Assembly (NCBI GenBank): GCA_024401335.1
Contig: JAKSLH010000019.1
Location: 1-57,257 of the forward strand
DNA from: Bacteroidales bacterium
GTDB lineage: Bacteria; Bacteroidota; Bacteroidia; Bacteroidales; Marinilabiliaceae
Length of the DNA stretch: 57,257 nt
Reading direction: 5' to 3'
Numbering within the stretch: the first letter of the stretch is position 1; each line of letters opens with the position of its first letter. Of this stretch, positions 1-15,292 are shown piece by piece. Under the pieces are notes generated by a model that saw only the letters and a list, made by a program, of their open reading frames with translations, was not told where the DNA came from and did not search any database. Position numbers and translations under genes: made by a program.

Positions 1-190
1 CCTCGATGGTAATGTCACCCTCGATGTGCTTACGAGCCGTATCAAACAGATACTCCGAAGTCTTTAAGCCATCCACCTGTTGCAGGCCGATAGCCACTTT
101 CCACGCCTCGCCACGCTCACGTTGCAGAGGTTCACCTTGTCGGATGTACTCCTCCAGACCTTGTATCGTATATTTCTGTCCTTCGTTCAT
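1..190 (-). CDS. Fic-family protein, N-terminal fragment (runs off the window)
   Basis: The first 63 codons are present, starting at the ATG at 188-190; the rest lies outside the window. The N-terminus (short charged start, then KYTIQGLEEYIRQGEP and a segment ending HIEGDITIE) matches what I remember of Bacteroidetes Fic proteins that carry an N-terminal VbhA-like antitoxin helix before the AMP-transferring Fic core. No catalytic HPFx(D/E)GNGR motif can be seen, because that part is missing. It reads in the same direction as the KAP NTPase gene and sits about 110 bases downstream of it, so it may belong to the same accessory block. The identification rests on resemblance of a short N-terminus and is moderate. 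Confidence 0.55.
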   Translation of the reverse strand, partial: MNEGQKYTIQGLEEYIRQGEPLQRERGEAWKVAIGLQQVDGLKTSEYLFDTARKHIEGDITIE

Positions 191-299: not shown

Positions 300-3200
300 T
301 TAATCGTGCTCAGCATTCTCAATTTTTATGTTCAGCAAATCAAGTAACTCTATTTCTCCTTGCCAATGTTTTTTTACTTGGTTCTTGAAATCCACTATGA
401 GACCTGCTGCGTTAAATAATTGACGATAAAAATCCTTGTTATTCAATATGAGATTTTTGACTTCCTCATAACTTATTATTGGCTTAATAATTCTATCAAC
501 AACATCTGTTGCCCTATCTTTAAGCTGTCCATATTTCACAAGGTTGTTCTCGCAAAACTTAAACGTTTCTATGCTAATATTGCTTCGACCATTACAGAAG
601 GAGTCTCTAATTTCTGAAAATCTATGAGAAATAAGAGATGGAGATACACTTTGCGATAAATTCACATAATATTCATTTCCACTTATTGGTTTTATTCCTG
701 TAGCTAGTTGTTTATATAAAAGACCTGCATATTCAATAATACACTGAGGCCGATTCTGCATTGATTCATTATTCATTAGAGCAGCATACATTTGATGCCA
801 GTAATCGTTTTGGCGACTACGTTCTGCATCAATGAACTGCTGGCAAGTTCTTGTTGAAATTGCATCATACGCATGACGGTTAATAATTCTAGACAAATTA
901 TTAGGCAATTCTGAAGTGAATTTGTATATCTCTGCAGAAGGAATTAATGTTTGAATTTCTTTGGGTGATGAGGTGATTTGGTAATCTTCTGCCCAACTAT
1001 TCAAATTAGCGAGCAATTCAATCTCAGAAACAGAATAATGATCTCTTATTTCTGTGAATTTTGGCAGGACTTCATCTAAATCAAGTACATTTCCTAAATC
1101 GTTTTCTATCATATATTTGACGACCTTATTAGCAGAATGGTCATTCCATCGTAAATTTTTGACTATTAAATCTCCGAAGTCAATATACGAATCGATAATT
1201 TCCGATACCTGAGCTATATACAGATCTTCAACAACAACACTTCTATGCTTAGCAACAGAAATTGCTAATAAATCAATGTAGCCATCCTCTAATTTTATCT
1301 TTTCATTATTTGTCAATTCTGACAATAAACTTTGTAGGGTAGAATCATCTATAAGTTCAGGGACAACTCCACTATTAATACACCTATATATTTTGCAAAT
1401 TGGCCAAAGATTATTTAAGTCGATAGCATTACCTCTTATTGTTTCTGAAATCTTATTGTTTGTAGTGTCAAAATTGCTAAATCCGTCAGAATACAATTTA
1501 CAAACAGCATCGGCGCAATTCATTTCGTTAGGAATCTTTCCAGACACATAATCATCCACTTGTTCAGGAGCACAACATAAATTATAAGACTTATATGAAT
1601 TGATCTGAGTAGATACGGCATCAATAAAAGCATCTGGCTTAACCTCAATATTTGGATGCGGAATTTCGAACTCAACACCTTGAACTAAATCTAATGAATT
1701 GAGGCATTTAACATAAGTAGCTCCATTAAAGTTCTTAGAATTTCTCCAAGCTTTACAAAGTTTATTAACGAGATTTTGACAAGTATCTTTTGAGACATGG
1801 GTAATTGCAGTTTTGTATTCTTCTGGTAATGTTTGTTCGGTCACATCTTGTTTGAGAAGACGTTTTGCTACATCTTCCCATAATTGCTTAATATCATCAC
1901 TAACCTTATTTAGTGTACCTAAACACTTTACAAGGTTCGCATTTTTAGCTGAATCTGTGACTATGACCACCTCTTTTAATATTGAATCGAAATTAGGATC
2001 CTCATTTGCGTAGAGATTAATATCATATCCATCAACAGAATCTATACAACGAGTAATATACTCTGTAAGAGGAATTTGTTTCGCTATCTCCTTATTTATA
2101 CCATAAGTTAATGCTGCTATCTCACTTTTATATTCTTCAGTATTTTCTATAACAGATTTTTCTAGTTTGAGATATCCACAAGATAGTATTTGTTCTATTG
2201 GATTCTTAAGTATTTCATCCTTGTGTATGACAAATATTGCCATATTGACTAAGCTAATCTGTTCATTCCATACATAGAACAATGACACCAAATTGTTAAT
2301 AAATATAATAATATCTCTAACATTTGGCTCGGTGCGGTTGAGTCGATAGATTCGATTAATCAAATCTTCATATTTGCATCCTTCGCCAAATGCTTCAACA
2401 AATAGTTTTGAGAAAATTCCCTTGTAATCTGTAATAACAGGCTTTGGTACAGAGAACGTGACAGGGAATGTTTTATTAATAAAGTATCTAGTCAATGATA
2501 ACTTATCATCACCATCACCAAAGGCACATGACAGATGGCTCTCATCGTATGGAATTATAACCCAAACATTATCAAATCCTGTTTCTGCAAAGAAAGTATG
2601 TATTGACGACCATAACTGCTTAACTTTGTCAGCTGGTAATCTATCCATGTTGTCGAAAACGACAACTAACTTGTTACATACCTTTGAGTTAAGATTGTCT
2701 GAGACATCTTTCATCCAATTCTTAAACTCAACAACAGATGGTTCATCCTCGCTTATAAGCTCAAATTGAGTTTCCTTATTAACCTTATCGTTGTAGATTG
2801 CTAACAGATAACTTAAATTGCGATAGTTTTCGTTTCTACAAGCCGCTATGCCCCATACAATAAAAGTTGAAATGATTGGTAGCAAAGCAATAATTAAAGA
2901 ATACCATCCACATGGTTCAGCCAGTAATAGAGCGATAAGAGAAGAAATACTTGTAAGAATAGTTGTAACAGCTCCAGCTATCATTCCGTTACTAATGCGA
3001 GGATACGACTCAGAAGTTGTTTCAGTTTTACGAGCGAGTAGCAACTTGAGCTTTTCTTCCCAAGATACAGTTTTTGTTTTCCCTCCCTTAATTGTCATTT
3101 CAGTTTCCCCAATTAACACTTTCTTGTTAACGAGGTTTGAAGTTAATTGCTCTAGCAAAGAACGCCTCTGAAGATCTTCTTGATTTCCCCAGGCATCATA

Positions 3201-3449
3201 TTCAAAAAAATAATAATTATGAGGATGATTTTTTATTAAATCATTCTCTACCATTCTAACGACATTAGACTTTCCTGAACCCCAGGTGCCTTCAATTCCG
3301 ATTATTCTTGGTAAAGACTCTATCGAATTAGGATTATCATTGCGAAGAATGTGTTGAACAATAGCTTTGGATAATGAGCTCTGCGAGCCACCATCAAATT
3401 TGTCTTTGCCTTTTGGTTTATCTGAAATATATCTTGGAGTTTGAATCAT
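300..3449 (-). CDS. KAP-family P-loop NTPase with two membrane segments
   Basis: The 1049-residue protein has a Walker A motif EGTWGSGKS (about residues 53-61), a DAW motif near residue 85, two hydrophobic segments (about 155-177 and 183-204) and a Walker B strand LVVVFDNMDR (261-270). Membrane segments inserted between Walker A and Walker B are the hallmark of KAP NTPases, which are membrane-anchored STAND-like ATPases often found with anti-phage genes. The roughly 650 residues after the ATPase core are helical-looking and I recognise no domain in them. The gene lies 7 bases downstream of the nuclease-like gene and is clearly in its operon. It is AT-rich compared with the core genes further right, which suggests transfer. 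A sensor or effector role in defence is inferred; the ATPase fold is well supported. Confidence 0.85.
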   Translation of the reverse strand: MIQTPRYISDKPKGKDKFDGGSQSSLSKAIVQHILRNDNPNSIESLPRIIGIEGTWGSGKSNVVRMVENDLIKNHPHNYYFFEYDAWGNQEDLQRRSLLEQLTSNLVNKKVLIGETEMTIKGGKTKTVSWEEKLKLLLARKTETTSESYPRISNGMIAGAVTTILTSISSLIALLLAEPCGWYSLIIALLPIISTFIVWGIAACRNENYRNLSYLLAIYNDKVNKETQFELISEDEPSVVEFKNWMKDVSDNLNSKVCNKLVVVFDNMDRLPADKVKQLWSSIHTFFAETGFDNVWVIIPYDESHLSCAFGDGDDKLSLTRYFINKTFPVTFSVPKPVITDYKGIFSKLFVEAFGEGCKYEDLINRIYRLNRTEPNVRDIIIFINNLVSLFYVWNEQISLVNMAIFVIHKDEILKNPIEQILSCGYLKLEKSVIENTEEYKSEIAALTYGINKEIAKQIPLTEYITRCIDSVDGYDINLYANEDPNFDSILKEVVIVTDSAKNANLVKCLGTLNKVSDDIKQLWEDVAKRLLKQDVTEQTLPEEYKTAITHVSKDTCQNLVNKLCKAWRNSKNFNGATYVKCLNSLDLVQGVEFEIPHPNIEVKPDAFIDAVSTQINSYKSYNLCCAPEQVDDYVSGKIPNEMNCADAVCKLYSDGFSNFDTTNNKISETIRGNAIDLNNLWPICKIYRCINSGVVPELIDDSTLQSLLSELTNNEKIKLEDGYIDLLAISVAKHRSVVVEDLYIAQVSEIIDSYIDFGDLIVKNLRWNDHSANKVVKYMIENDLGNVLDLDEVLPKFTEIRDHYSVSEIELLANLNSWAEDYQITSSPKEIQTLIPSAEIYKFTSELPNNLSRIINRHAYDAISTRTCQQFIDAERSRQNDYWHQMYAALMNNESMQNRPQCIIEYAGLLYKQLATGIKPISGNEYYVNLSQSVSPSLISHRFSEIRDSFCNGRSNISIETFKFCENNLVKYGQLKDRATDVVDRIIKPIISYEEVKNLILNNKDFYRQLFNAAGLIVDFKNQVKKHWQGEIELLDLLNIKIENAEHD

Positions 3450-3456
3450 ATCTTTA

Positions 3457-4521
3457 CTATTTTATCATTCCATCAGGCACTAGTCCTAAGCCGTTGATAC
3501 TTTCCATAGCACTTGTGAGTGAAGTATGTGTTGTTATCACGTCCTTATAGTTCCAAAACTTTACTTCGTCACGGATTTGTGGTAAAGAAGCAATTTCTTT
3601 CTTGATCTTCTCAATCTGGGCTTCATCCGTAACGGCAACAATACCTTGTACAGCTTTGTTCGTCTTTGCTTTCATGAGGTTGAGCACTAGGCTATCGATG
3701 CTTCCTGATGTCTGAACTTCGAATACATAGATGACTCGACCCATGTTGCCAATAGATGCTTGCCAAACAGCATCAACTTTAGCACCAGCTGCAATGGTTA
3801 CCTCTACATTTGACTCAAAGCCAAGGAACTCGCCAATCTCCATGATTTTATCACGGACATCATTGTGAACAAAGTCCTTCTGCTTTTTTGTCTCTTTCTC
3901 ATCAGGAGTTTTCTCTGCAGGTTGATCTTTTATCTCCTGCAACTCTTTCCAGAAGAAATAGTCAAGAGAAAGGAAATCTTCTACACCTTTGTGCCCGCTT
4001 TCTTTAGCAATAGAAATCAATTCTTTTCCCTCCTTTGATACTCTTACATAAGAGGCACCATCAAGGCTGTGGTAGTTAGGGACTTTGATGTCGAGAGTTT
4101 TGAACGCATTAACAGCTTTCACATTCCAAAGAATGAACTGGTCTGGATAAGTCTTACACAATAGCTCACTCATGATTGCAGGCCCCATGCCCTTAACATT
4201 CTTACGAAAATCATCCCAACGAGTCTCCAAAGCATCAGAACCATAGAGCAGATTAGCGAGTTTCTTTCGCAGATAGTCAAGCCCGTTCTCTTCTATGACC
4301 TTCAGGATATGCTTCTCTCTGTTACCCCACATGAGGATTGCCCAAAGAGGCTTCATCATTTCAACAAGGTCTGCTTCAGAAGCATTCAGGAGACGTTTCT
4401 TGCCAAATGACTGTATAGCTTCACAGAGTTCGCGACGTTCTTTGCGTTCTTCATCGAACTCTGCGCCAGTAAATCCTTTTTCGTACTTCTCAAGGTACTT
4501 TATGTATTCTGTTTTATTCAT
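3457..4521 (-). CDS. Putative HhH plus PD-(D/E)XK-like nuclease, partner of the KAP NTPase
   Basis: The 354-residue protein has three parts. Residues 1-100 are helical. Residues about 105-140 contain KGMGPAIMSELL followed by NVKAVNAF, which resembles a helix-hairpin-helix DNA-binding unit. After a charged linker (200-218), residues 220-330 read as a PD-(D/E)XK-type core: an acidic strand near E240, KVDAVW with D250, then VIYVFEVQ with E268 and Q270, and a following helix with K284. E-x-Q in place of E-x-K occurs in some nucleases of this fold. No close family name comes to mind. It is the third of four tightly spaced leftward ORFs and ends 7 bases before the KAP gene. DNA cleavage is inferred from motif shape only; a DNA-end or modified-base sensor is the alternative. 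Confidence 0.6.
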   Translation of the reverse strand: MNKTEYIKYLEKYEKGFTGAEFDEERKERRELCEAIQSFGKKRLLNASEADLVEMMKPLWAILMWGNREKHILKVIEENGLDYLRKKLANLLYGSDALETRWDDFRKNVKGMGPAIMSELLCKTYPDQFILWNVKAVNAFKTLDIKVPNYHSLDGASYVRVSKEGKELISIAKESGHKGVEDFLSLDYFFWKELQEIKDQPAEKTPDEKETKKQKDFVHNDVRDKIMEIGEFLGFESNVEVTIAAGAKVDAVWQASIGNMGRVIYVFEVQTSGSIDSLVLNLMKAKTNKAVQGIVAVTDEAQIEKIKKEIASLPQIRDEVKFWNYKDVITTHTSLTSAMESINGLGLVPDGMIK

Positions 4522-4525
4522 TATT

Positions 4526-4627
4526 CTAATTCCTTTGAACTATAACATTAAGACGAGTAGGATAATGGCATTTTGAGCATTCATTCTCTCCTACCGCTCT
4601 ATAGGATGTCTTTAGTTCTTTTGCCAT
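4526..4627 (-). CDS. 33-residue ORF with a CxxC pair, first or second gene of the KAP operon
   Basis: An ATG at 4625-4627 opens 33 codons that end 4 bases before the start of the nuclease-like gene. The peptide begins MAKELKTSYRAVGENE and has a CSKCHYPTR segment, a zinc-knuckle-like half site. Its tight spacing on both sides (2 bases after the preceding ORF, 4 before the next) argues for translation by coupling. It could be a real small protein, a leader peptide, or the 5' remnant of a longer gene. I do not recognise it. Confidence 0.4.
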   Translation of the reverse strand: MAKELKTSYRAVGENECSKCHYPTRLNVIVQRN

Positions 4628-4629
4628 AA

Positions 4630-4791
4630 TTATATTCTGTCACCGAAAGGGAGATTCTTTATAAAGTTTTCCATAAAGCCCCAATCAGGAATAAATCCCT
4701 GTTCTGAGTAGCTGTAGGTGTCATCAATTACTGGTGCGTTATTTTCGTATCTTTTTATTGAAAACCAATTATAATATAACCTGTAATTCAA
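4630..4791 (-). CDS. Possible 53-residue ORF with TTG start at the head of the KAP operon
   Basis: A frame open from a TAA just upstream gives 53 residues if translation starts at the TTG at 4789-4791; there is no ATG before an internal Met. The sequence is protein-like (SIKRYENNAPVIDDTY and later GFIPDWGFMENF). It ends 2 bases before the ATG of the next small ORF. It may be a real gene with a rare start, or the C-terminus of a gene that lost its 5' part, since an ATG in another frame lies just upstream. Function unknown. Confidence 0.3.
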   Translation of the reverse strand: MNYRLYYNWFSIKRYENNAPVIDDTYSYSEQGFIPDWGFMENFIKNLPFGDRI

Positions 4792-4871: not shown

Positions 4872-4904
4872 CAAATATAAGAAAAAACACCTCTTTTTCG
4901 CAAA
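4872..4904 (-). promoter_or_regulatory. Bacteroidetes-type promoter for the KAP/nuclease operon
   Basis: On the minus strand TTTG (plus 4901-4904) is followed after 21 bases by TATATTTG (plus 4872-4879). This fits the sigma-ABfr consensus TTTG-N19-21-TAnnTTTG. Transcription would start near 4865 and run left into the four-ORF unit. Confidence 0.6.
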
Positions 4905-5232
4905 GAATAGGAGGTATAATTTATTCAGAGTCTAAATAATTTTAGAGGCTATTTTAGCTGTTTTCTTCTCAAGAACCACTATGTCCATACACCAACTCCG
5001 CCCGTTCTGACCATTTTTGATTGTATCTACGTTCCCCATTAGGGTACATGATAGTCTGAAGTGAAGCGCCGACCCCGCATTGTAACAAGCACTTTTTGTT
5101 TCATTTTTGGCAAGGAAAAGGGGGGATTTCGGGGAAATACAAAGCTGAATATCCTTTTAAGAAAAGGTTGTCTGTGAGGGATTTTGTCGAAATGGCATGA
5201 TTATTGATAATTTTTTTACAAAATTTTTCCTT
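4905..5232. other. Gap between the divergent KAP operon and the LRR gene
   Basis: No convincing gene is seen. A 35-codon minus-strand ORF (4932-5039) is open but has no recognisable motif and no promoter of its own. A G-rich patch lies near 5110-5135. The stretch probably marks the junction between the AT-rich accessory block and the more typical chromosome to the right. Confidence 0.4.
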
Positions 5233-6357
5233 ATGAGAACAGCTATAATCTTGATAGGTCTCTTATCATTCTCAGCCCTCACGTCTACTCTGCGTGCTCA
5301 GGTGGCAATCGACGAAATACATTTCCCCGATCCGTTGTTCCGCAAATATGTCACTGAACATTTCAACCACGACACCATCCCTGATACGCTCAGCGTGGCC
5401 GAACTGAATAATATAAAAAACATATATGTTCAGGGCGATTCGATAAACTCACTTCAGGGCATTGAGTATTTCTATAATCTCAAGTACATCGGTTGCAGCA
5501 ACAACAACCTGCAACACATAGATCTTTCGCACAATGCCGAACTGCAACGTATCGACTGCTGCTACAATAACCTTACTTCCCTCGACCTTAGTCACAACTA
5601 CAACATTCAGTCGGTGTCATGCACCAACAATATGCTGACATCCATTCTCTTGCCAGATTCTTACTATCTTGAACAACTGGAATGTGACAACAATAGTCTC
5701 CGCAGCCTAAATCTGACAAGGGCAACGCATCTGAGGGAGTTGTCGTGCACCGACAATATGTTGACTTCGCTCATTCTGCCCACCCAATCTCCACTGAAGA
5801 TCATACGTTGCCATCACAACCGTCTGACTTGTCTCGACTTGAGTGATTCGCCTCGCATCTTTGACGTCCAGTGCAACAACAATTTGCTCACACAGCTCGA
5901 CCTCGCCGACAAGCAACGTCTCAAGTATTTAAGGTGTGACAGCAACTACATCGACACTCTCTACATAGCCAATACTCCTGTGCTAGCCTATCTGTCATGT
6001 AGCTACAATAGACTCGCTTTGTTGGATGTGTCACAGTGTCCGGCACTTGTCCATGTCGAATGTAGCAACAATTACCTCCATGCTTTGTCTCTAAAAAGTA
6101 ATGATTGCCTTGACATTTTGGACTGTAGCAACAATATGATATCAGAACTTCGTTACAAACGCAAGATCCATATTATCAATGCCGACAACAACAACCTCGA
6201 CAGGCGGTCACGTGTCAGGCTGTGGCGCACTAACAGTCTCCGTCCGCGATTGGCCGCCGTCGGACAAGTCTCTGCTGGTGTAGGCATCGTTGCAACGGCT
6301 CCCATATCTTTACCAATAATAGTTATTCGTGCATTAAGGCACATGTGGAACTATTAG
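5233..6357 (+). CDS. Secreted leucine-rich-repeat protein of the cysteine-ladder type
   Basis: The protein is 374 residues. I chose the ATG at 5233 over the in-frame ATG at 5197 because it begins directly with a signal peptide (MRTAIILIGLLSF, cleavage after LRAQ). After an N-terminal cap (IDEIHFPDPLFRKYVTEHF) come about 11 repeats of 21 residues of the form L-x-x-L-x-C-x-x-N-x-L-x-x-L-x-L, with Cys in the same place in each (for example LEQLECDNNSL), plus one degenerate repeat. This is the arrangement known from Listeria internalin J. The last 40 residues are basic, then hydrophobic. It shares its N-terminal cap with the LRR protein at 46640-48148 and is clearly a paralogue. Ligand binding at the surface is the usual role; the ligand is unknown. 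Confidence 0.8.
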   Translation: MRTAIILIGLLSFSALTSTLRAQVAIDEIHFPDPLFRKYVTEHFNHDTIPDTLSVAELNNIKNIYVQGDSINSLQGIEYFYNLKYIGCSNNNLQHIDLSHNAELQRIDCCYNNLTSLDLSHNYNIQSVSCTNNMLTSILLPDSYYLEQLECDNNSLRSLNLTRATHLRELSCTDNMLTSLILPTQSPLKIIRCHHNRLTCLDLSDSPRIFDVQCNNNLLTQLDLADKQRLKYLRCDSNYIDTLYIANTPVLAYLSCSYNRLALLDVSQCPALVHVECSNNYLHALSLKSNDCLDILDCSNNMISELRYKRKIHIINADNNNLDRRSRVRLWRTNSLRPRLAAVGQVSAGVGIVATAPISLPIIVIRALRHMWNY

Positions 6358-6485
6358 TCACTACAACAAATAAAAGCCGGCAACCGTTGAACTGTCATCA
6401 GGGTGTCAGAGATTTCTTCTACGATGGTTGGGGTGGTTTGCTCGGACAGTAGGGCGAGCATGAGGGCGGTGTTGGTTGGGTTCAT
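6354..6485 (-). CDS. Possible 43-residue ORF overlapping the LRR stop
   Basis: An ATG at 6483-6485 opens 43 codons that end 4 bases inside the LRR gene on the opposite strand. The peptide starts MNPTNTALMLALLSEQTTPT, continues IVEEISDTLMTVQRLP and ends with a CC pair. Amino-acid composition is protein-like but I know no family. No clear promoter was seen. The rest of the gap to 6707 holds nothing I recognise. Confidence 0.3.
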   Translation of the reverse strand: MNPTNTALMLALLSEQTTPTIVEEISDTLMTVQRLPAFICCSD

Positions 6486-6707
6486 GGTGATAATGATATT
6501 AGGGAAATGCTGATGTGGGTTGCGCATCAGCGTTTCTTGTTATTTTCTGGACTCCAATAATTTAATAATCTAAGTCAACCTATTCTAGGGAAGTACACAT
6601 CAAACATTTGACTATAGAGGGTGCTAATAAGGCCCATTCTTCCCCCACCCATAGTATTGCCTTATTCAGAAATAATAACGAAATTTGCATCAACAATTAT
6701 CTCTACT

Positions 6708-7556
6708 ATGTCAGAAATAACATCTCTTGAACGCGGCATGCAGCGACGTACTGAATTGCTGCTCGGCCATGATAACCTTGCACGAATACAAGAAGCTAAA
6801 GTGCTGATCTTTGGTCTTGGTGGCGTGGGTTCGTGGTGTGCCGAGGCGCTGGTAAGAAGTGGAATAAGACATATAACAATGGTCGATTCCGACCGTGTCT
6901 GCGCAACCAACTGCAACCGTCAGCTCATGGCAACGAGCAAGACTATTGGCCAAGTGAAGATTGAGGCCTTGAAAGAACGACTGCTAGAGATTAATCCTAA
7001 CGCCGATATTGACGCCCAGCAACGTATATACGATGCCACAACTGCCGATTCATTTAAGATGGAGGAGTACGACTTTGTCATTGATGCGATTGACTCTCTT
7101 TCAGAAAAATCTCATCTGATACTTAAGGCTACGAGTCTGCCTAAGAACGTGACTTTTATATCGTCAATGGGCGCGGCTTTGAGAACTGACCCGTTCTTGG
7201 TTCGTAAAGCCGAATTCTGGGATGTAAAGGGTGATCCGTTGGCAAGGGCCATAAGGAAGAAATTCAAGCATAACAAGACATTCCCTGCGCGTAAATTCTA
7301 TTGCGTATATAGCGAAGAGCAGCCTATGGAGAACATAGGGGAAAACTTTGCTTGCGGACTAGAGAATTGCATCTGCAAGAAAAAGAAGTTGACATCTAAG
7401 GCCCCAAGCGACATCACAGCAGAGGATCAGCGACTGGCAGAGCACGACTGGACTGCATCTAAGGCACAGGTGAATGGGTCGATGTGTCACATCACGGCGA
7501 TCTTCGGCATGTCAATAGCGGGAATTGTAATAAACAAACTGATAGGAAAACAATAA
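6708..7556 (+). CDS. tcdA: tRNA threonylcarbamoyladenosine dehydratase (TcdA/CsdL)
   Basis: ThiF/HesA/MoeB E1-like protein of 282 residues. It has the nucleotide-binding motif VLIFGLGGVGSWCAEALVRSG (about 32-52), the D-x-D/N segment VDSDRVCATNCNRQ, and the tail NGSMCHITAIFGMSIAG, all typical of TcdA, which cyclises t6A to ct6A at position 37 of ANN-decoding tRNAs using ATP. The start at 6708 (MSEITSLERGMQRRTELLLG) fits the family length; the longer in-frame ATG at 6621 would add 29 poorly conserved residues. It stands alone upstream of the M16 peptidase gene. Confidence 0.9.
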   Translation: MSEITSLERGMQRRTELLLGHDNLARIQEAKVLIFGLGGVGSWCAEALVRSGIRHITMVDSDRVCATNCNRQLMATSKTIGQVKIEALKERLLEINPNADIDAQQRIYDATTADSFKMEEYDFVIDAIDSLSEKSHLILKATSLPKNVTFISSMGAALRTDPFLVRKAEFWDVKGDPLARAIRKKFKHNKTFPARKFYCVYSEEQPMENIGENFACGLENCICKKKKLTSKAPSDITAEDQRLAEHDWTASKAQVNGSMCHITAIFGMSIAGIVINKLIGKQ

Positions 7557-7728
7557 AACAAATATATAAGATGAATGGTTGCAGAACTCATCAACAACGG
7601 GCAGACGCATAACGGTGAATTCATCGAGCTCTATCCTATCGTAGATGAATAAAACATCAATTCCATTAGAGGAGTGCGCCCCCAATGGCATATAAAAAAA
7701 ACACACGACCTTCCAATCTATAGAAAAC

Positions 7729-10650
7729 ATGAATTGCATTAAGTACGTTTCTACCCTATCGTTGGCACTATGCCTTACATCATGCTACGATCATGTTCGC
7801 TGTTATTACGACCAAAACTCCTACGAGTCGTCTATCAATGATAGTGAGCAGGGATCTATGACACCAATATCGCTGTCTGGCACATATTCCCAAGCTCCTC
7901 TACAAGAGATACCCATATCGGCAGATCTCTCTTATGGTGTTCTCGACAATGGATTAACATATTACGTACACAAGATAAACGAACATGCCGAAACGCACTA
8001 CGATGGCCTTGTTGACATCTCGCTAGTTGTCAAGGCCGGTTCTCTCGTTGAAGAAGACAACAAACAGGGACTTGCTCACTTTGTAGAACATGTTGTCTTT
8101 GACGGGTCTAAGAATTATCCAGGTTATTCGGCCACCGAGAAGATGCGCCGCGCAGGTGTCGCTTTCGGCAATGACATGAATGGACATACTTATTTAAACG
8201 CTACTGTCTATGAACTATATCGTGTTCCCATCTCAGACAACTCACACATCATTGACACTTGTCTTCATATCATCCGCGACTGGGCTTCAGAATGTACATT
8301 GGCCGACAGTTCGGTTGAGAGAGAACGTTCTATAGTTCTCGAGGAACTTCGCGCTGTAGAAGCAGGATCATACATCAATCGCAGTCGCAACATCTGGGCT
8401 GGCACACGCTATGCAGATAGAATGCCATGGGGCACTTTCGAGTCTGTCTCCAAAATCACTGGCGACGATATACGCCGTTTCTACAAGAAGTGGTACCAAC
8501 CACAGAACATGGCTCTTGTCATTTATGGCGACATAGACACAAACCGAGTGATTGACTTGATAAAGTCAGAATTCTCTTCACTAGAACGTGGAGACACAGA
8601 AATACCGAGCTTTGCCTTCAATATGGAGAATCACAAGCAGCCACGCGCATTCGTGATAAACGACAATACTATGTCATCGGCCGACTTGCTTTTCACATTC
8701 TCAATAAGCGATGACAATCTATGCCTCAAGCGAAACACCCTTGCGTGGTACGTTGACACACAATCAAGGTCACGACTTACAGAGCTGATATATAAACGAC
8801 TTGAACGTATTCGCAATGAATATTCTCTCTTCAACATCATCAAGGAACAATATGACAATAACGTAAGAGAAGACTATCCTTTTACTATTCATCTCACCGC
8901 TAACCCACAGGACTGGCCGTTGGTTGTCGAGCTCGTTTCACGCGAACTGGAGAAGATGCGTAAATACGGTTTCACCCAGAAGGAGGCTCGCGACTGCCAA
9001 TTTCCTCTCGAATCTAACGACAGCCTTTCTGACTCCATTAATTTTCCTCCGACCGACGAATACAATATTCCAACAGTGTTTGGCAGCAGCTTCATTGTCA
9101 ATCACTTCGTCATGGGCGATTACTATATTGACGGCTCAACACAAAATGCACTACTAAACCATTGCAATCGCATCACGGCCAGCTATGCACAAGCTCATCT
9201 ACAACATATCACAACCGACGACCGACTAACCATCTCTGTCACTCTACCCGACGATTCCACCCAAGCGTCAAGCCAAGATATCCTCAACGCCTATAATCGT
9301 GGCCGCAACGGAGATATCGAAAGCGAGAAATATCTATATGCTGAGGGTGCCAACTATAAGAAGATTGCTCACGAACTCGTGGTTGACAAGCCATTAGCAT
9401 CTGTTGTCGAGCACGACCATGACTCATTCCGCAACGTCACAACACTGAAATTAAGCAATGGAGTAGAGGCTACTATATATTATGACTCGGTTATGGATTT
9501 CGTCGTTGAAGGTGTCAGATATGGAACTATGACAAACTACACTGACCTTGAGGCTAAGAAAATCAAGATGCTCCCTAATATAGTCCAAGACCCATTTCTA
9601 GGCTACAATGGTGGCTACGACGAATACTCTACAGTCAACTTTGAAGACGAATATGACACATACAAGAGCCGTAGCTATAATATATGCGCCGAGGATCTTC
9701 TGAAGATGGCGGTATTTCGCCTTATGAATACCGAAATCGACTCTGCACGTTTCGTAAATTACAAGAGACAGCTACGTAGCCAACAACCGATATCTAAATC
9801 GTATGCGGCTCATGTTGAAGAATTATGGTACAACACCATCTATTCCGATGAGTATGCTGCTCGTACGGCTCAACTGACACCTGATGAGATTGACAACATT
9901 ACCCTTGACGAGATGAGGAAGCTTTCTAATGATTACAGGTCAAGCTTCAATGGCATGCACTTTGCCATCAGATCAAGCTATGATGTTGATTATACCGATT
10001 CCCTCGTCATCAGATATCTTGGAATGTTGCCATCAAAGTCTCAGCCTATCGCCCCACGCGACATACCAGCAATGCATTTCCGCGACTCTTCATCAAGAGC
10101 TTGCTACACATATAAGAGCGATTTGCCTTCGGCTAAAATTGTTTTAGGATATGCGCAATCTAAGAATTACGAGTATACTACTGAGCAACATGTGACGATG
10201 GACGCACTAGGCCACATCATGAACGTACTTCTCTTCAACAATATTCGTCTGACCATGGGCAATATCTACTCCTTCAATGTATTCTATGACCACAAGTTCA
10301 TGTCGGGTGACAAACTATTCTTCTCTGTATTTACCACTTGCGCCCCTTCTGCAACCGACAAAATACTGACCTCGATAGACAATGTCATAAATGACATGGC
10401 CTATGGACAGTCAATAACCCAAGAACTTGTTGACGATTATATCAGCAATCGAATGAAAAACTACTACGAATACCCTCGTGATTGGGAAAAGGTTGACTAC
10501 CTTACCCAAACCTACCAACATAATGGCAAGGCTGTTCACTCGTCCAACAAGAAAGCCATCAAGAGACTCACACCCGACAAGATTCGTAATTTCCTCAGAC
10601 TTATGCTCACCGAAGGACATAAGCAGGAACTCATAATAAAAGGAGAATAG
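7729..10650 (+). CDS. M16-family zinc metallopeptidase lipoprotein (PqqL-like)
   Basis: 973 residues with a lipobox (LTSC, Cys19), so probably anchored in an envelope membrane. The inverted zinc motif HFVEH is at residues 117-121, with the third ligand in SIVLEEL (E205 or E206). A middle M16C-type domain and a second, inactive M16 half follow, giving the usual single-chain layout of the PqqL/insulysin group. These enzymes degrade peptides in a closed chamber. Compared with many Bacteroidetes homologues the length is normal. There is no obvious operon partner; it follows tcdA by about 170 bases. Confidence 0.88.
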   Translation: MNCIKYVSTLSLALCLTSCYDHVRCYYDQNSYESSINDSEQGSMTPISLSGTYSQAPLQEIPISADLSYGVLDNGLTYYVHKINEHAETHYDGLVDISLVVKAGSLVEEDNKQGLAHFVEHVVFDGSKNYPGYSATEKMRRAGVAFGNDMNGHTYLNATVYELYRVPISDNSHIIDTCLHIIRDWASECTLADSSVERERSIVLEELRAVEAGSYINRSRNIWAGTRYADRMPWGTFESVSKITGDDIRRFYKKWYQPQNMALVIYGDIDTNRVIDLIKSEFSSLERGDTEIPSFAFNMENHKQPRAFVINDNTMSSADLLFTFSISDDNLCLKRNTLAWYVDTQSRSRLTELIYKRLERIRNEYSLFNIIKEQYDNNVREDYPFTIHLTANPQDWPLVVELVSRELEKMRKYGFTQKEARDCQFPLESNDSLSDSINFPPTDEYNIPTVFGSSFIVNHFVMGDYYIDGSTQNALLNHCNRITASYAQAHLQHITTDDRLTISVTLPDDSTQASSQDILNAYNRGRNGDIESEKYLYAEGANYKKIAHELVVDKPLASVVEHDHDSFRNVTTLKLSNGVEATIYYDSVMDFVVEGVRYGTMTNYTDLEAKKIKMLPNIVQDPFLGYNGGYDEYSTVNFEDEYDTYKSRSYNICAEDLLKMAVFRLMNTEIDSARFVNYKRQLRSQQPISKSYAAHVEELWYNTIYSDEYAARTAQLTPDEIDNITLDEMRKLSNDYRSSFNGMHFAIRSSYDVDYTDSLVIRYLGMLPSKSQPIAPRDIPAMHFRDSSSRACYTYKSDLPSAKIVLGYAQSKNYEYTTEQHVTMDALGHIMNVLLFNNIRLTMGNIYSFNVFYDHKFMSGDKLFFSVFTTCAPSATDKILTSIDNVINDMAYGQSITQELVDDYISNRMKNYYEYPRDWEKVDYLTQTYQHNGKAVHSSNKKAIKRLTPDKIRNFLRLMLTEGHKQELIIKGE

Positions 10651-12940: not shown

Positions 12941-15292
12941 ATGAAAAATACAATCAAAGCATTGGGATTAGCAGGTATGATGATGGCAACATCATTGGCT
13001 TATGCACAACCACAATTGAACAAGGAGAATATCGACGAGGTAATAAAGGCCATGACTACCGAAGAAAAGGTTGACATGATCATTGGTTGCGGAATGTCGA
13101 TGAGCGGAACAGACAAGTTCCCTGGTACTGCTGGTCGCACACGCGACATCCCACGTCTGGGCATTAAATCCATATATATGGCCGACGGTCCTCATGGTGT
13201 CAGAATGGCTATCAACCGTGAATGGGACAGCAACTTCTACTATTGCACAGAATTTCCTTCGAGCATGACAGTTGCAGCTTCTTTCGACCCTGCTCTTGCG
13301 TTTGAAGTAGGCAAAGCTATCGGTCAGGAAGTTAAGGACTACGGACTCGACGTTATATTGGCACCTGGTGTCAACCTCTTCCGTAATGCGTTGTGCGGAC
13401 GTAACCACGAATACTATTGCGAAGATCCTGTTCTTGCAGGAAAACTTGCGGCATCATATATTAATGGTGTACAGAGCGAAGGTTCTGGCGCATGTATCAA
13501 ACACTTTGCTGTCAATGGTCAGGAGACAAACCGTAACAATATGGACAGCCGTGTCAACCAACGTCCACTGCGTGAGCTCTATCTCAAGAATTTCGAGATT
13601 GCTATTAAGGAATCACAGCCATGGAGCGTGATGACTGCTTATAATAAAGCTAACGGCAAATACACTTGCGAAGACTATGATCTTACAGAAACTATCCTTC
13701 GTGACGAATGGGGATTCAAGGGCATGGTGATGAGCGACTGGAATGCTGGTAAGGACGCTGTAGCCTCTATGAAGGCTGGCAACGACATGCTTCAGCCTGG
13801 TCAGCCTCGTCAGCGTCAGGCTATCCTCGACGCTATTGCCGATGGCTCTTTGAGCATTGACATCATCGACCGCAACGTGCATCGCATTCTTGAATTTGTT
13901 GTAAAGGGACATAGCTTCAACGGCTACGAATACCCTAACGAAACAGATCTCAAGGCACACGCTAAGATTGTTCGCACAAGAGGTGCAGAAGGTATGGTAC
14001 TTCTTAAGAATAACGACAATATACTTCCACTTGCTGTCAAGAATGTTGCGCTCTACGGTTGTACTTCGTATGACATCGTTTCGGGTGGCATGGGCTTCGG
14101 CGGCACAGGCAAGGGCTACTATTGCGTGTCTCTTGTTGAAGGTATGCGCAACGCTGGCTACACTCTCGACCAGTCGCTTATCGACCTCTACAAGAAGCAT
14201 ATCGCTGCAGAAGACAAGCGTCTCTACCCTAACGGACTGCCTCCATTCTCGCTCACTGCACTCAAGAGAGCAGAGGAGCCTGTACACGAAGCGGCCGACC
14301 TTGCAAAGCAGGTTGAAGCTAATGAAGTGGCTATCATCACACTCGCAAGAACAAGCGGCGAAGGCGCTGACCGTCGCATTGAGGACTTCAACCTCCGCGA
14401 CTCTGAACGTGCCCTCATCAAGCAGATCAGCGAAGCATATCACTCAGCAGGCAAGAAAGTTGTCGTATTGCTCAACATCTGCGGAGCTATGGAAACTGCA
14501 TCGTGGAAAGATATGGTTGACGGCATTGTCTGCACATTCCAGCCTGGCGAGCAGGTCGGCAACAGCATAGCAGATGTCATCTCGGGTAAAGTTAACCCAT
14601 CAGGTAAACTTCCTATGACATTCCAGATGGCATACGGCGATGCACCAGCCGACAAGAACTTCCCATTCGACTATGAGTTTAAGATGCCTGACTTCGCAAT
14701 GGGCACTGGCATGAATATCCAGAAGAAGAAGGTTGAAGAGAAGCCAAAGGAACTTGTTCGCAATGTTGATTACACTCTCCTCGAAGAGGGCATATATATC
14801 GGTTACAGATATTTCGACACTTTCAAGAAAGAGGTGAGCTTCCCATTCGGATTCGGTCTCTCTTATACTACATTCAACTACGAACTTGTTTCATCTGCTA
14901 TCAACGGTGACAAGTGCGAGATGAAGGTTAAGGTCACCAACACTGGCAAGGTCGCTGGTCGTGAGAGTGTTCAGCTCTACGTACACGCTCCTAAGGGTAA
15001 GCTCGACAAGCCTTCTAAGGAACTTAAGGCTTTTGCTAAGACTGCTCTCATAGAGCCTGGTCAGAGCGAAGTTGTAACCCTCACATGGAACACAATGGAC
15101 ATGGCTTCATTCAACGAGAAGCTCTCTGCATGGCAGCTCGACAAGGGCGAATATGAGTTCCTCGCTGCATCGTCATCGGTCGATGTCAAGTGCGTAGCAA
15201 AGCAGAAGGTTGCTAAACAGCAGATAGAGAAGGTACACAACGCTATGGCTCCACAACAGCCTGTAGCAACTCATCCAATGGTAAAAAGATAA
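12941..15292 (+). CDS. Secreted glycoside hydrolase family 3 beta-glucosidase
   Basis: 783 residues from the ATG at 12941, which begins a signal peptide (MKNTIKALGLAGMMMATSLA, cleavage after AYAQ). The GH3 N-terminal barrel shows IYMADGPHGVRM, the KHFAVNGQE loop and the catalytic nucleophile Asp in GMVMSDWNAG. The second alpha/beta domain contains AEGMVLLKNNDNILPL, and an Fn3-like C-terminal domain follows (GRESVQLYVHAPKGKLDKP). These enzymes release glucose or xylose from the non-reducing end of beta-glucosides in the periplasm. The esterase gene follows after 6 bases, so the two are one operon. The frame seen 49 codons further upstream is not used. Confidence 0.92.
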   Translation: MKNTIKALGLAGMMMATSLAYAQPQLNKENIDEVIKAMTTEEKVDMIIGCGMSMSGTDKFPGTAGRTRDIPRLGIKSIYMADGPHGVRMAINREWDSNFYYCTEFPSSMTVAASFDPALAFEVGKAIGQEVKDYGLDVILAPGVNLFRNALCGRNHEYYCEDPVLAGKLAASYINGVQSEGSGACIKHFAVNGQETNRNNMDSRVNQRPLRELYLKNFEIAIKESQPWSVMTAYNKANGKYTCEDYDLTETILRDEWGFKGMVMSDWNAGKDAVASMKAGNDMLQPGQPRQRQAILDAIADGSLSIDIIDRNVHRILEFVVKGHSFNGYEYPNETDLKAHAKIVRTRGAEGMVLLKNNDNILPLAVKNVALYGCTSYDIVSGGMGFGGTGKGYYCVSLVEGMRNAGYTLDQSLIDLYKKHIAAEDKRLYPNGLPPFSLTALKRAEEPVHEAADLAKQVEANEVAIITLARTSGEGADRRIEDFNLRDSERALIKQISEAYHSAGKKVVVLLNICGAMETASWKDMVDGIVCTFQPGEQVGNSIADVISGKVNPSGKLPMTFQMAYGDAPADKNFPFDYEFKMPDFAMGTGMNIQKKKVEEKPKELVRNVDYTLLEEGIYIGYRYFDTFKKEVSFPFGFGLSYTTFNYELVSSAINGDKCEMKVKVTNTGKVAGRESVQLYVHAPKGKLDKPSKELKAFAKTALIEPGQSEVVTLTWNTMDMASFNEKLSAWQLDKGEYEFLAASSSVDVKCVAKQKVAKQQIEKVHNAMAPQQPVATHPMVKR

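Follow-up and report, generated by a model that had tools for sequence, protein, structure and literature searches.

A Probable Mosaic of Defense Parts in a Bacteroidales Genome: A Candidate Reader-Plus-Nuclease Protein Beside a KAP NTPase Gene

Introduction

Do four tightly spaced open reading frames (ORFs) near one end of a Bacteroidales contig form a single defense system, or have parts with separate histories come to lie side by side? The window analyzed here is the full 57,257-nt contig JAKSLH010000019.1 (positions 1–57257), from an assembly of 2.7 Mb that is 84.6% complete. The ORFs lie on the minus strand at 4791–4630 (53 amino acids, TTG start), 4627–4526 (33 amino acids), 4521–3457 (354 amino acids), and 3449–300 (1,049 amino acids), and the gaps between consecutive ORFs of 4791–300 are 2, 4, and 7 bases, a count and spacing that we reproduced from an initial annotation of the sequence. 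That annotation treated the ORFs as one unit, in which a KAP membrane NTPase senses infection and the 354-residue protein is its nuclease effector. We favor a different answer, to which we assign a probability of about 60%: the locus would be a mosaic of defense parts, in which a stand-alone candidate modification- or lesion-sensing nuclease lies beside an independent KAP defense gene, rather than one four-gene system. The tight spacing most likely reflects gene swapping inside a restriction–modification (R-M) locus, which corrects a tempting operon-based inference.

Comparison with the Closest Relative Points to Gene Exchange

Relatives of the locus were sought in the genome_contigs collection by a scan seeded with six exact peptides, which finds close relatives only. 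The sole relative returned, L010, comes from a metagenome-assembled genome named Candidatus Scybalocola fimicaballi, and its 354-residue protein is 97% identical to that of the window (95% for the DNA). The L010 gene order is methylase, specificity (S) gene, 354-residue protein gene, ResIII helicase, and Fic; the methylase matches the PADLOC type IIG model with 1,212 bits, and the Fic copy matches PF02661 (E 3.9e-12). Window DNA matches this locus only at 3457–4591 (95%) and at 1–202 (90% over 203 columns). The latter stretch corresponds to the start of Fic, and the DNA match identifies positions 1–190 (minus strand) as a Fic-family gene that runs off the contig end after its N-terminal part. 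Between the 354-residue protein gene and Fic lies the KAP gene in the window and the ResIII helicase in L010, both starting 7 bases past the stop codon of the 354-residue protein gene. Searches made without a positive control did not find KAP in the L010 genome or the L010 methylase in the window's incomplete assembly; of the L010 helicase–Fic segment, only the Fic start was found in that assembly, whose incompleteness means that the absence is not proof. The G+C content is 33.7% in the KAP gene, 33.8% in the region of the two small ORFs, 41.7% in the 354-residue protein gene, and 43.9% in the window.

The first of the small ORFs (4630–4791, minus strand) carries a trace of an R-M gene. Its residues 16–53 match residues 800–837, the exact C terminus, of an 837-residue N-6 DNA methylase on a Ligilactobacillus plasmid (47%, E 2e-4, in the plasmid collection), and a second, weak match (E 0.1) is to a restriction S subunit. 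Because the first alignment ends at the methylase's own C terminus, we read the ORF as an R-M gene truncated to its C-terminal stump, in origin a methylase or specificity gene. The 33-residue ORF (4526–4627, minus strand) has one counterpart, diverged and 30 residues long, upstream of the 354-residue homolog in L010 (7890–7982), and we leave it unassigned. It had no match by tblastn in plasmids and phages, and its reading as the start of a radical-SAM gene was not adopted.

Taken as a history, these comparisons suggest that the locus probably began as an R-M operon of methylase, specificity gene, 354-residue accessory nuclease, and helicase, followed by Fic. In this strain the methylase/specificity part is reduced to a stump, and the unrelated KAP gene would have replaced the helicase at the gene boundaries, if we have the direction of exchange right; matching sequence on either side, in the 354-residue protein gene and in Fic, could have guided the exchange. 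In L010 itself, the gene at 2732–4540 upstream of the R-M operon has, by eye, a truncated near-copy at 13269–13904, downstream of Fic, and direct repeats may flank the whole R-M–Fic segment there. In another Bacteroidales locus, upstream of a KAP gene, a short protein (L061, 5430–5780) resembles the N-terminal part of the L010 Fic (38% over 71 residues).

The 354-Residue Protein Keeps Varied Company

Outside the window, the 354-residue family was found at nine loci, seven full length, one split, and one a fragment: in Monoglobus (L006), Methanothermobacter (L007), Halomarina (L008), Natronosalvus (L009, split), L010, two further Bacteroidales (L025 and L026), a phage contig (L037), and the fragment L034. 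Full-length matches, with the window's own counted, occurred in 1 of 296 phylum, 3 of 393 order, 1 of 395 class, and 1 of 71 family genomes; these samples overlap, and the phylum figure comes from a single-protein query. Three shorter frames from the phylum search (L003, 252 residues, E 3e-5; L004 and L005, 62–74 residues) were dropped from the counts.

Judged by their gene neighborhoods, relatives are carried alongside type I, IIG, and III R-M genes. At L025, REase_I, MTase_I, and an S-like gene lie directly downstream; at L009, a type III methylase (9e-168) and restriction endonuclease (8e-172), convergent, adjoin the homolog; and at L007, an N-6 methylase-like gene lies 2.5 kb away. The Halomarina relative (L008/L035) has a ZacC-type helicase (E 0) at about 5 kb and no R-M gene was seen there, nor were R-M genes seen in the available flanks of L006 and L026. 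The L037 relative, full length at 7275–8423 of a viral contig, adjoins what by reading of the sequence is an apparent large terminase gene, and is possibly a phage-borne competition gene; it was the only relative in our viral-contig scans, and a search of phage records with the 354-residue protein gave no match. The Natronosalvus homolog is annotated as two adjacent ORFs (5980–6474 and 6481–7044), the sign of a broken gene or else of a version made of two proteins.

With R-M genes near five of the nine full-length or split loci (L010, L025, L009, L007, and the window, its stump counted), the protein might have served type I, IIG, and III enzymes as a subunit or accessory and now be a functionless orphan beside the stump, with KAP as unrelated cargo. 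We consider this doubtful, though it is the strongest of the rival explanations. Between the window and L010 the gene shows 26 synonymous vs. 10 nonsynonymous codon differences, a ratio of nonsynonymous to synonymous substitution rates (dN/dS) of 0.10; such strong purifying selection indicates that the protein stayed functional through most of the window–L010 divergence, part of which may predate R-M loss. Moreover, copies without R-M neighbors occur (L006, L026, and the phage contig L037), and the partner R-M types appear too different for one fixed interface. Most economically, the 354-residue protein is read as a stand-alone enzyme that would both recognize and cut foreign DNA bearing modifications or damage, and that travels with several types of R-M locus; it most likely acts alone or beside any R-M system present.

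KAP and the 354-Residue Protein Are Not a Conserved Pair

If KAP sensed infection at the membrane and the 354-residue protein were its effector, the two would make one new two-gene system, and the window holds features in keeping with it: both genes are on the same strand, 7 bases apart, and intact, the KAP frame being free of internal stops; one plausible promoter lies upstream; and both KAP and the 354-residue family are found in defense-like settings. However, a tblastn search with three KAP proteins detected KAP in the flanks of none of the nine other 354-family loci, and a 354-like gene was found at none of 13 KAP loci (L011, L012, L013, L041, L042, and L058–L065), or of 21 when eight shorter, overlapping loci from the same genomes are added. 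The 13 are not independent: L011, L012, L058, and L065 are one element (99.99–100% over matched stretches), to which L041 and L042 probably also belong. Some have short flanks, of about 1.5 kb at L041 and L042 and on contigs of 4.4 kb (L064) and 6.8 kb (L063). In L010, moreover, the helicase stands in KAP's position with the identical 7-base gap. The two genes thus never appeared together outside this strain in the loci examined, the outcome that the initial annotation had itself named as contrary to its proposal. The sensor-plus-effector system is therefore unlikely, with only one alternative, taken up below, being less probable, and a conserved two-gene KAP–nuclease system was rejected. A newly formed functional pairing limited to this strain may exist. 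The four ORFs as one unit were not confirmed; the locus is more probably a mosaic. Titles and abstract beginnings in the open literature gave no description of a fusion of HhH and nuclease domains or of this gene pair.

The upstream promoter is part of the same question. The Bacteroidota promoter pattern is TTG-N19-22-TAnnTTTG, and the site at 4903–4872 (minus strand) is its sole minus-strand match in the first 6 kb; the pattern occurs nine times across the window on both strands, so the site is weak evidence for a promoter and stands here as a possible one. When the first 6 kb were scanned for sigma-70 sites, 15 were counted, against 20.0 expected in shuffles.

A Nuclease-Like Domain Follows a Glycosylase-Like Domain

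What, then, is the 354-residue protein (3457–4521)? The intact protein had no significant match in Pfam, NCBIfam, or PADLOC. From its sequence it nevertheless appears to combine an AGOG-like HhH domain with a PD-(D/E)XK-like one, with moderate fold evidence for both, in line with the HhH-like and D...ExQ motifs noted at the outset.

The PD-(D/E)XK-like domain spans about residues 217–340 (3502–3873, minus strand) and is predicted from the order of its secondary structure, from VIA-align matches, and from a profile match to relatives of about 420 residues. The fold-alignment rows span residues 210–343; among these 50 rows, 16 carry the name of a restriction enzyme or nuclease domain: EcoT38I, PaqCI, FokI, MspJI, and BamHI twice each, and BglII, AspBHI, BsaWI, OkrAI, Shedu, and VRR_NUC once. 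The putative catalytic residues belong to the stretch from D250 through E268-V-Q270 (3712–3774, minus strand); D250 and E268 are invariant in eight of eight sequences. The third position, the Lys of (D/E)XK, is Q in five and H in two of seven sequences, and Q in L037, so the canonical Lys is missing; active PD-(D/E)XK enzymes can tolerate other residues there. The profile match to four of the ~420-residue proteins (probability 96.1, E 3.6e-9) pairs D250 and E268 with the D and E of IDVLW and FEVEK, and the one such relative scanned matches a PADLOC type II restriction endonuclease family (E 1.7e-6). PDB sequence searches with the C-terminal domain alone and with the ~420-residue relatives gave no match under E 0.1; a single-sequence AlphaFold model was uninformative (mean pLDDT 38.9); and a fold search against viral models gave one match under E 0.001 (XRE-type, rmsd 21.5), followed by RPB5-like and mixed ones. 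The ~420-residue proteins (L070–L081, with L075 dropped for internal stops) occur in 11 of 395 class genomes and share the HhH-plus-nuclease layout; a D...FEVEK motif is present in all four that were read, none of which falls in a clear Pfam family. Among modification-dependent restriction enzymes, MspJI and AspBHI have an SRA-like reader, whereas that of the 354-residue protein is HhH-GPD-like and the ExK lysine is replaced by Q or H in its family.

The N-terminal domain (about residues 1–205; 3907–4521, minus strand) resembles AGOG and OGG, HhH-GPD glycosylases represented by PF21790 and by PDB 9o00–9o03, with which an HhH hairpin and the following GPD-like segment align over ~100 residues. 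The hairpin lies at about residues 109–123, and the alignment to AGOG places the region from it through N133 at 4123–4197 (minus strand). PF21790 (OGG-like) matches five of seven family members at E ≤1, with full-length values of 6.5e-6 (L008), 1.6e-4 (L007), 7.1e-4 (L037), 0.044 (L006), and 0.21 (window) and none for L026, and five of 12 N-terminal domains cut out alone (best 2.4e-6). No member passes its curated cut-off of 27 bits, the best reaching 26.4 (full-length L008) and the window 11.7. In the PDB, the 8-oxoguanine glycosylase/AP lyase 9o01 aligns over profile positions 84–191 (E 0.026), and 9o00–9o03 give E 0.012–0.18 against the wider set of N-terminal domains. Weighing against this assignment, unrelated-looking chains score better, 9yp0 with E 0.016 and 2ckz and 5fj8, a polymerase subunit among them, with E 0.003–0.004; we treated all three as chance matches, and the PDB-level evidence for AGOG is weak when taken alone. 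Weak Pfam matches of single members (Not3, RRN3, and others) were not taken as evidence.

The same alignment bears on catalysis. The 9o00–9o03 entries hold three variants, differing at GLGMKEAS/GLGMSEAS and AIIDRH/AIINRH, of which we take the K/D form to be wild type. In the window protein, Ala115 falls in the column of the catalytic Lys of AGOG, and N133 in that of the catalytic Asp. The Asn variant aligns with N133 directly; for the two Asp variants HMMER places a gap at this point, and the pairing of Asp with Asn133 depends on the variants being one chain. In Pae-AGOG, K140 and D172 are required for catalysis, and D172N, like D172Q, has no detectable activity (PMC9638937). With both glycosylase catalytic residues replaced (A115, N133) and a nuclease-like domain fused to it, the window protein departs from AGOG, and from its sequence the domain looks noncatalytic. 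In window numbering, E119, N133, and L143 do not vary among the 12 aligned N-terminal domains; the alignment left out L030, L031, and L037, and two of its sequences, those of the window and L010, are nearly identical.

In all seven members scanned, the N-terminal domain is also matched by phrog_32193, a phage family of 194 positions that has no name (best 2.4e-7, window 2.2e-4), and phages may carry the reader domain alone. Brig1 and Brig3 are glycosylases used in phage defense (PMC11078745, PMC13160076). Both are catalytic, and Brig1 most resembles uracil DNA glycosylases in its modeled structure, whereas the domain of the 354-residue protein is HhH-like and noncatalytic in appearance.

The Same Domain Heads Other Defense Proteins

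The N-terminal domain also recurs in front of other effectors. It heads an McrB-like protein (L027, 6910–9786; E 1.3e-15) with MrcB_N, EVE, and AAA_5 domains, adjoined by McrC, and five AAA ATPases (E 3e-9 to 4.2e-5), at L028 (755–2758), L029 (4865–6727), L030 (908–2782), L032 (3163–4941), and L033 (4067–6124). All three of these ATPases that were scanned (L028, L029, and L032) match PtuA models, and the L033 ATPase matches AAA_21; the gene after the L032 ATPase, the sole neighbor scanned, matches PtuB, and other neighbors are HNH-like by eye. PF21790 did not match the isolated N-terminal domains of the McrB-like L027 and PtuA-like L029 proteins. A match in a PLD-domain protein (L022/L031, E 3.9e-6) was left out of the claim. 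The domain is thus shared with type IV McrBC and with Septu (PtuA/PtuB), from which the window differs otherwise: the 354-residue protein has neither an AAA+ motor nor an adjoining McrC, and the window's two long ORFs include no ATPase of PtuA type and no HNH match. Components are swapped between R-M systems and modification-dependent enzymes, and the reader domains of McrB relatives are varied (PMC12707154).

From these relationships we infer base recognition, cleavage, and phage defense by these proteins. In the 354-residue protein, the HhH domain, glycosylase-like but noncatalytic, would probe invading DNA for a modified or damaged base or flip such a base out, and the PD-(D/E)XK-like domain, from its fold and residues, would cut nearby. 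More broadly, and only tentatively, the dead AGOG-like domain could be a general, undescribed base-sensing reader of prokaryotic immunity, placed before at least three effectors (PD-(D/E)XK nuclease, McrBC motors, and PtuA/PtuB ATPase–HNH pairs), with the 354-residue protein of Bacteroidota, Clostridia, archaea, and phage as a minimal reader-and-cutter chain that travels with any R-M type. The 354-residue family is itself unnamed, and its reader domain recurs in McrB-like and PtuA-like defense proteins; if that domain does sense bases that are modified or damaged, recognition in several systems would be explained together, and the family would provide a testable single-chain enzyme. Least probable of all is that the protein is a repair or genome-maintenance nuclease that mends self-cleavage near R-M loci and is no restriction enzyme, since, although the AGOG-like HhH domain is a repair fold and a role in mending self-damage would suit a place near R-M loci, the catalytic positions of a glycosylase are both replaced, the N-terminal domain also heads McrB-like and PtuA-like defense proteins, and the family is patchily distributed (three of the order genomes and one of the family genomes).

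The KAP Gene

The 1,049-residue protein (300–3449, minus strand) is a KAP P-loop NTPase, as annotated initially, matching PF07693 with E 4.6e-17 and 62.6 bits, above the gathering cut-off of 20. KAP NTPases carry membrane segments inserted between the Walker A and Walker B motifs. Here Walker A (GTWGSGKS, residues 54–61; 3267–3290) and Walker B (VVVFDN, residues 262–267; 2649–2666) enclose predicted membrane segments at residues 155–205 (2835–2987, minus strand like both motifs), where by hydropathy the 19-residue means exceed 1.6 with a maximum of 2.44.

The P-loop region is common to the KAP defense proteins QatA and PifA (PADLOC 8.4e-13 and 1.5e-11, respectively), whereas the best matched stretches of the window KAP are confined to residues 8–124 and its neighbors are Fic and the 354-residue protein gene, no scan aimed at QatB–D having been made. 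Assignment to QatABCD was rejected (NCBIfam QatA 31.5 bits vs. a cut-off of 600), as was PifA proper (41.6 bits in total over two stretches, the best pairing residues 8–124 with positions 6–108 of 720). From its family, KAP is most likely a membrane-bound NTPase that, like PifA, excludes phages and does so independently.

Relatives of KAP occur in 21 of 393 order-sample genomes at E ≤0.001, the window's own included; of the other 20, 10 match a large part of the protein and 10 short stretches only. In the family sample the window's own genome is the only one of 71, and among 72,556 plasmid records 13 match, two of them with at least 80% coverage. At L062 (G230 C16), the KAP gene is broken by several stop codons and split in two frames. 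Beyond the four ORFs, and divergent from them, the plus strand at 5197–6357 encodes a 386-residue protein that by eye is a secreted-looking leucine-rich-repeat protein.

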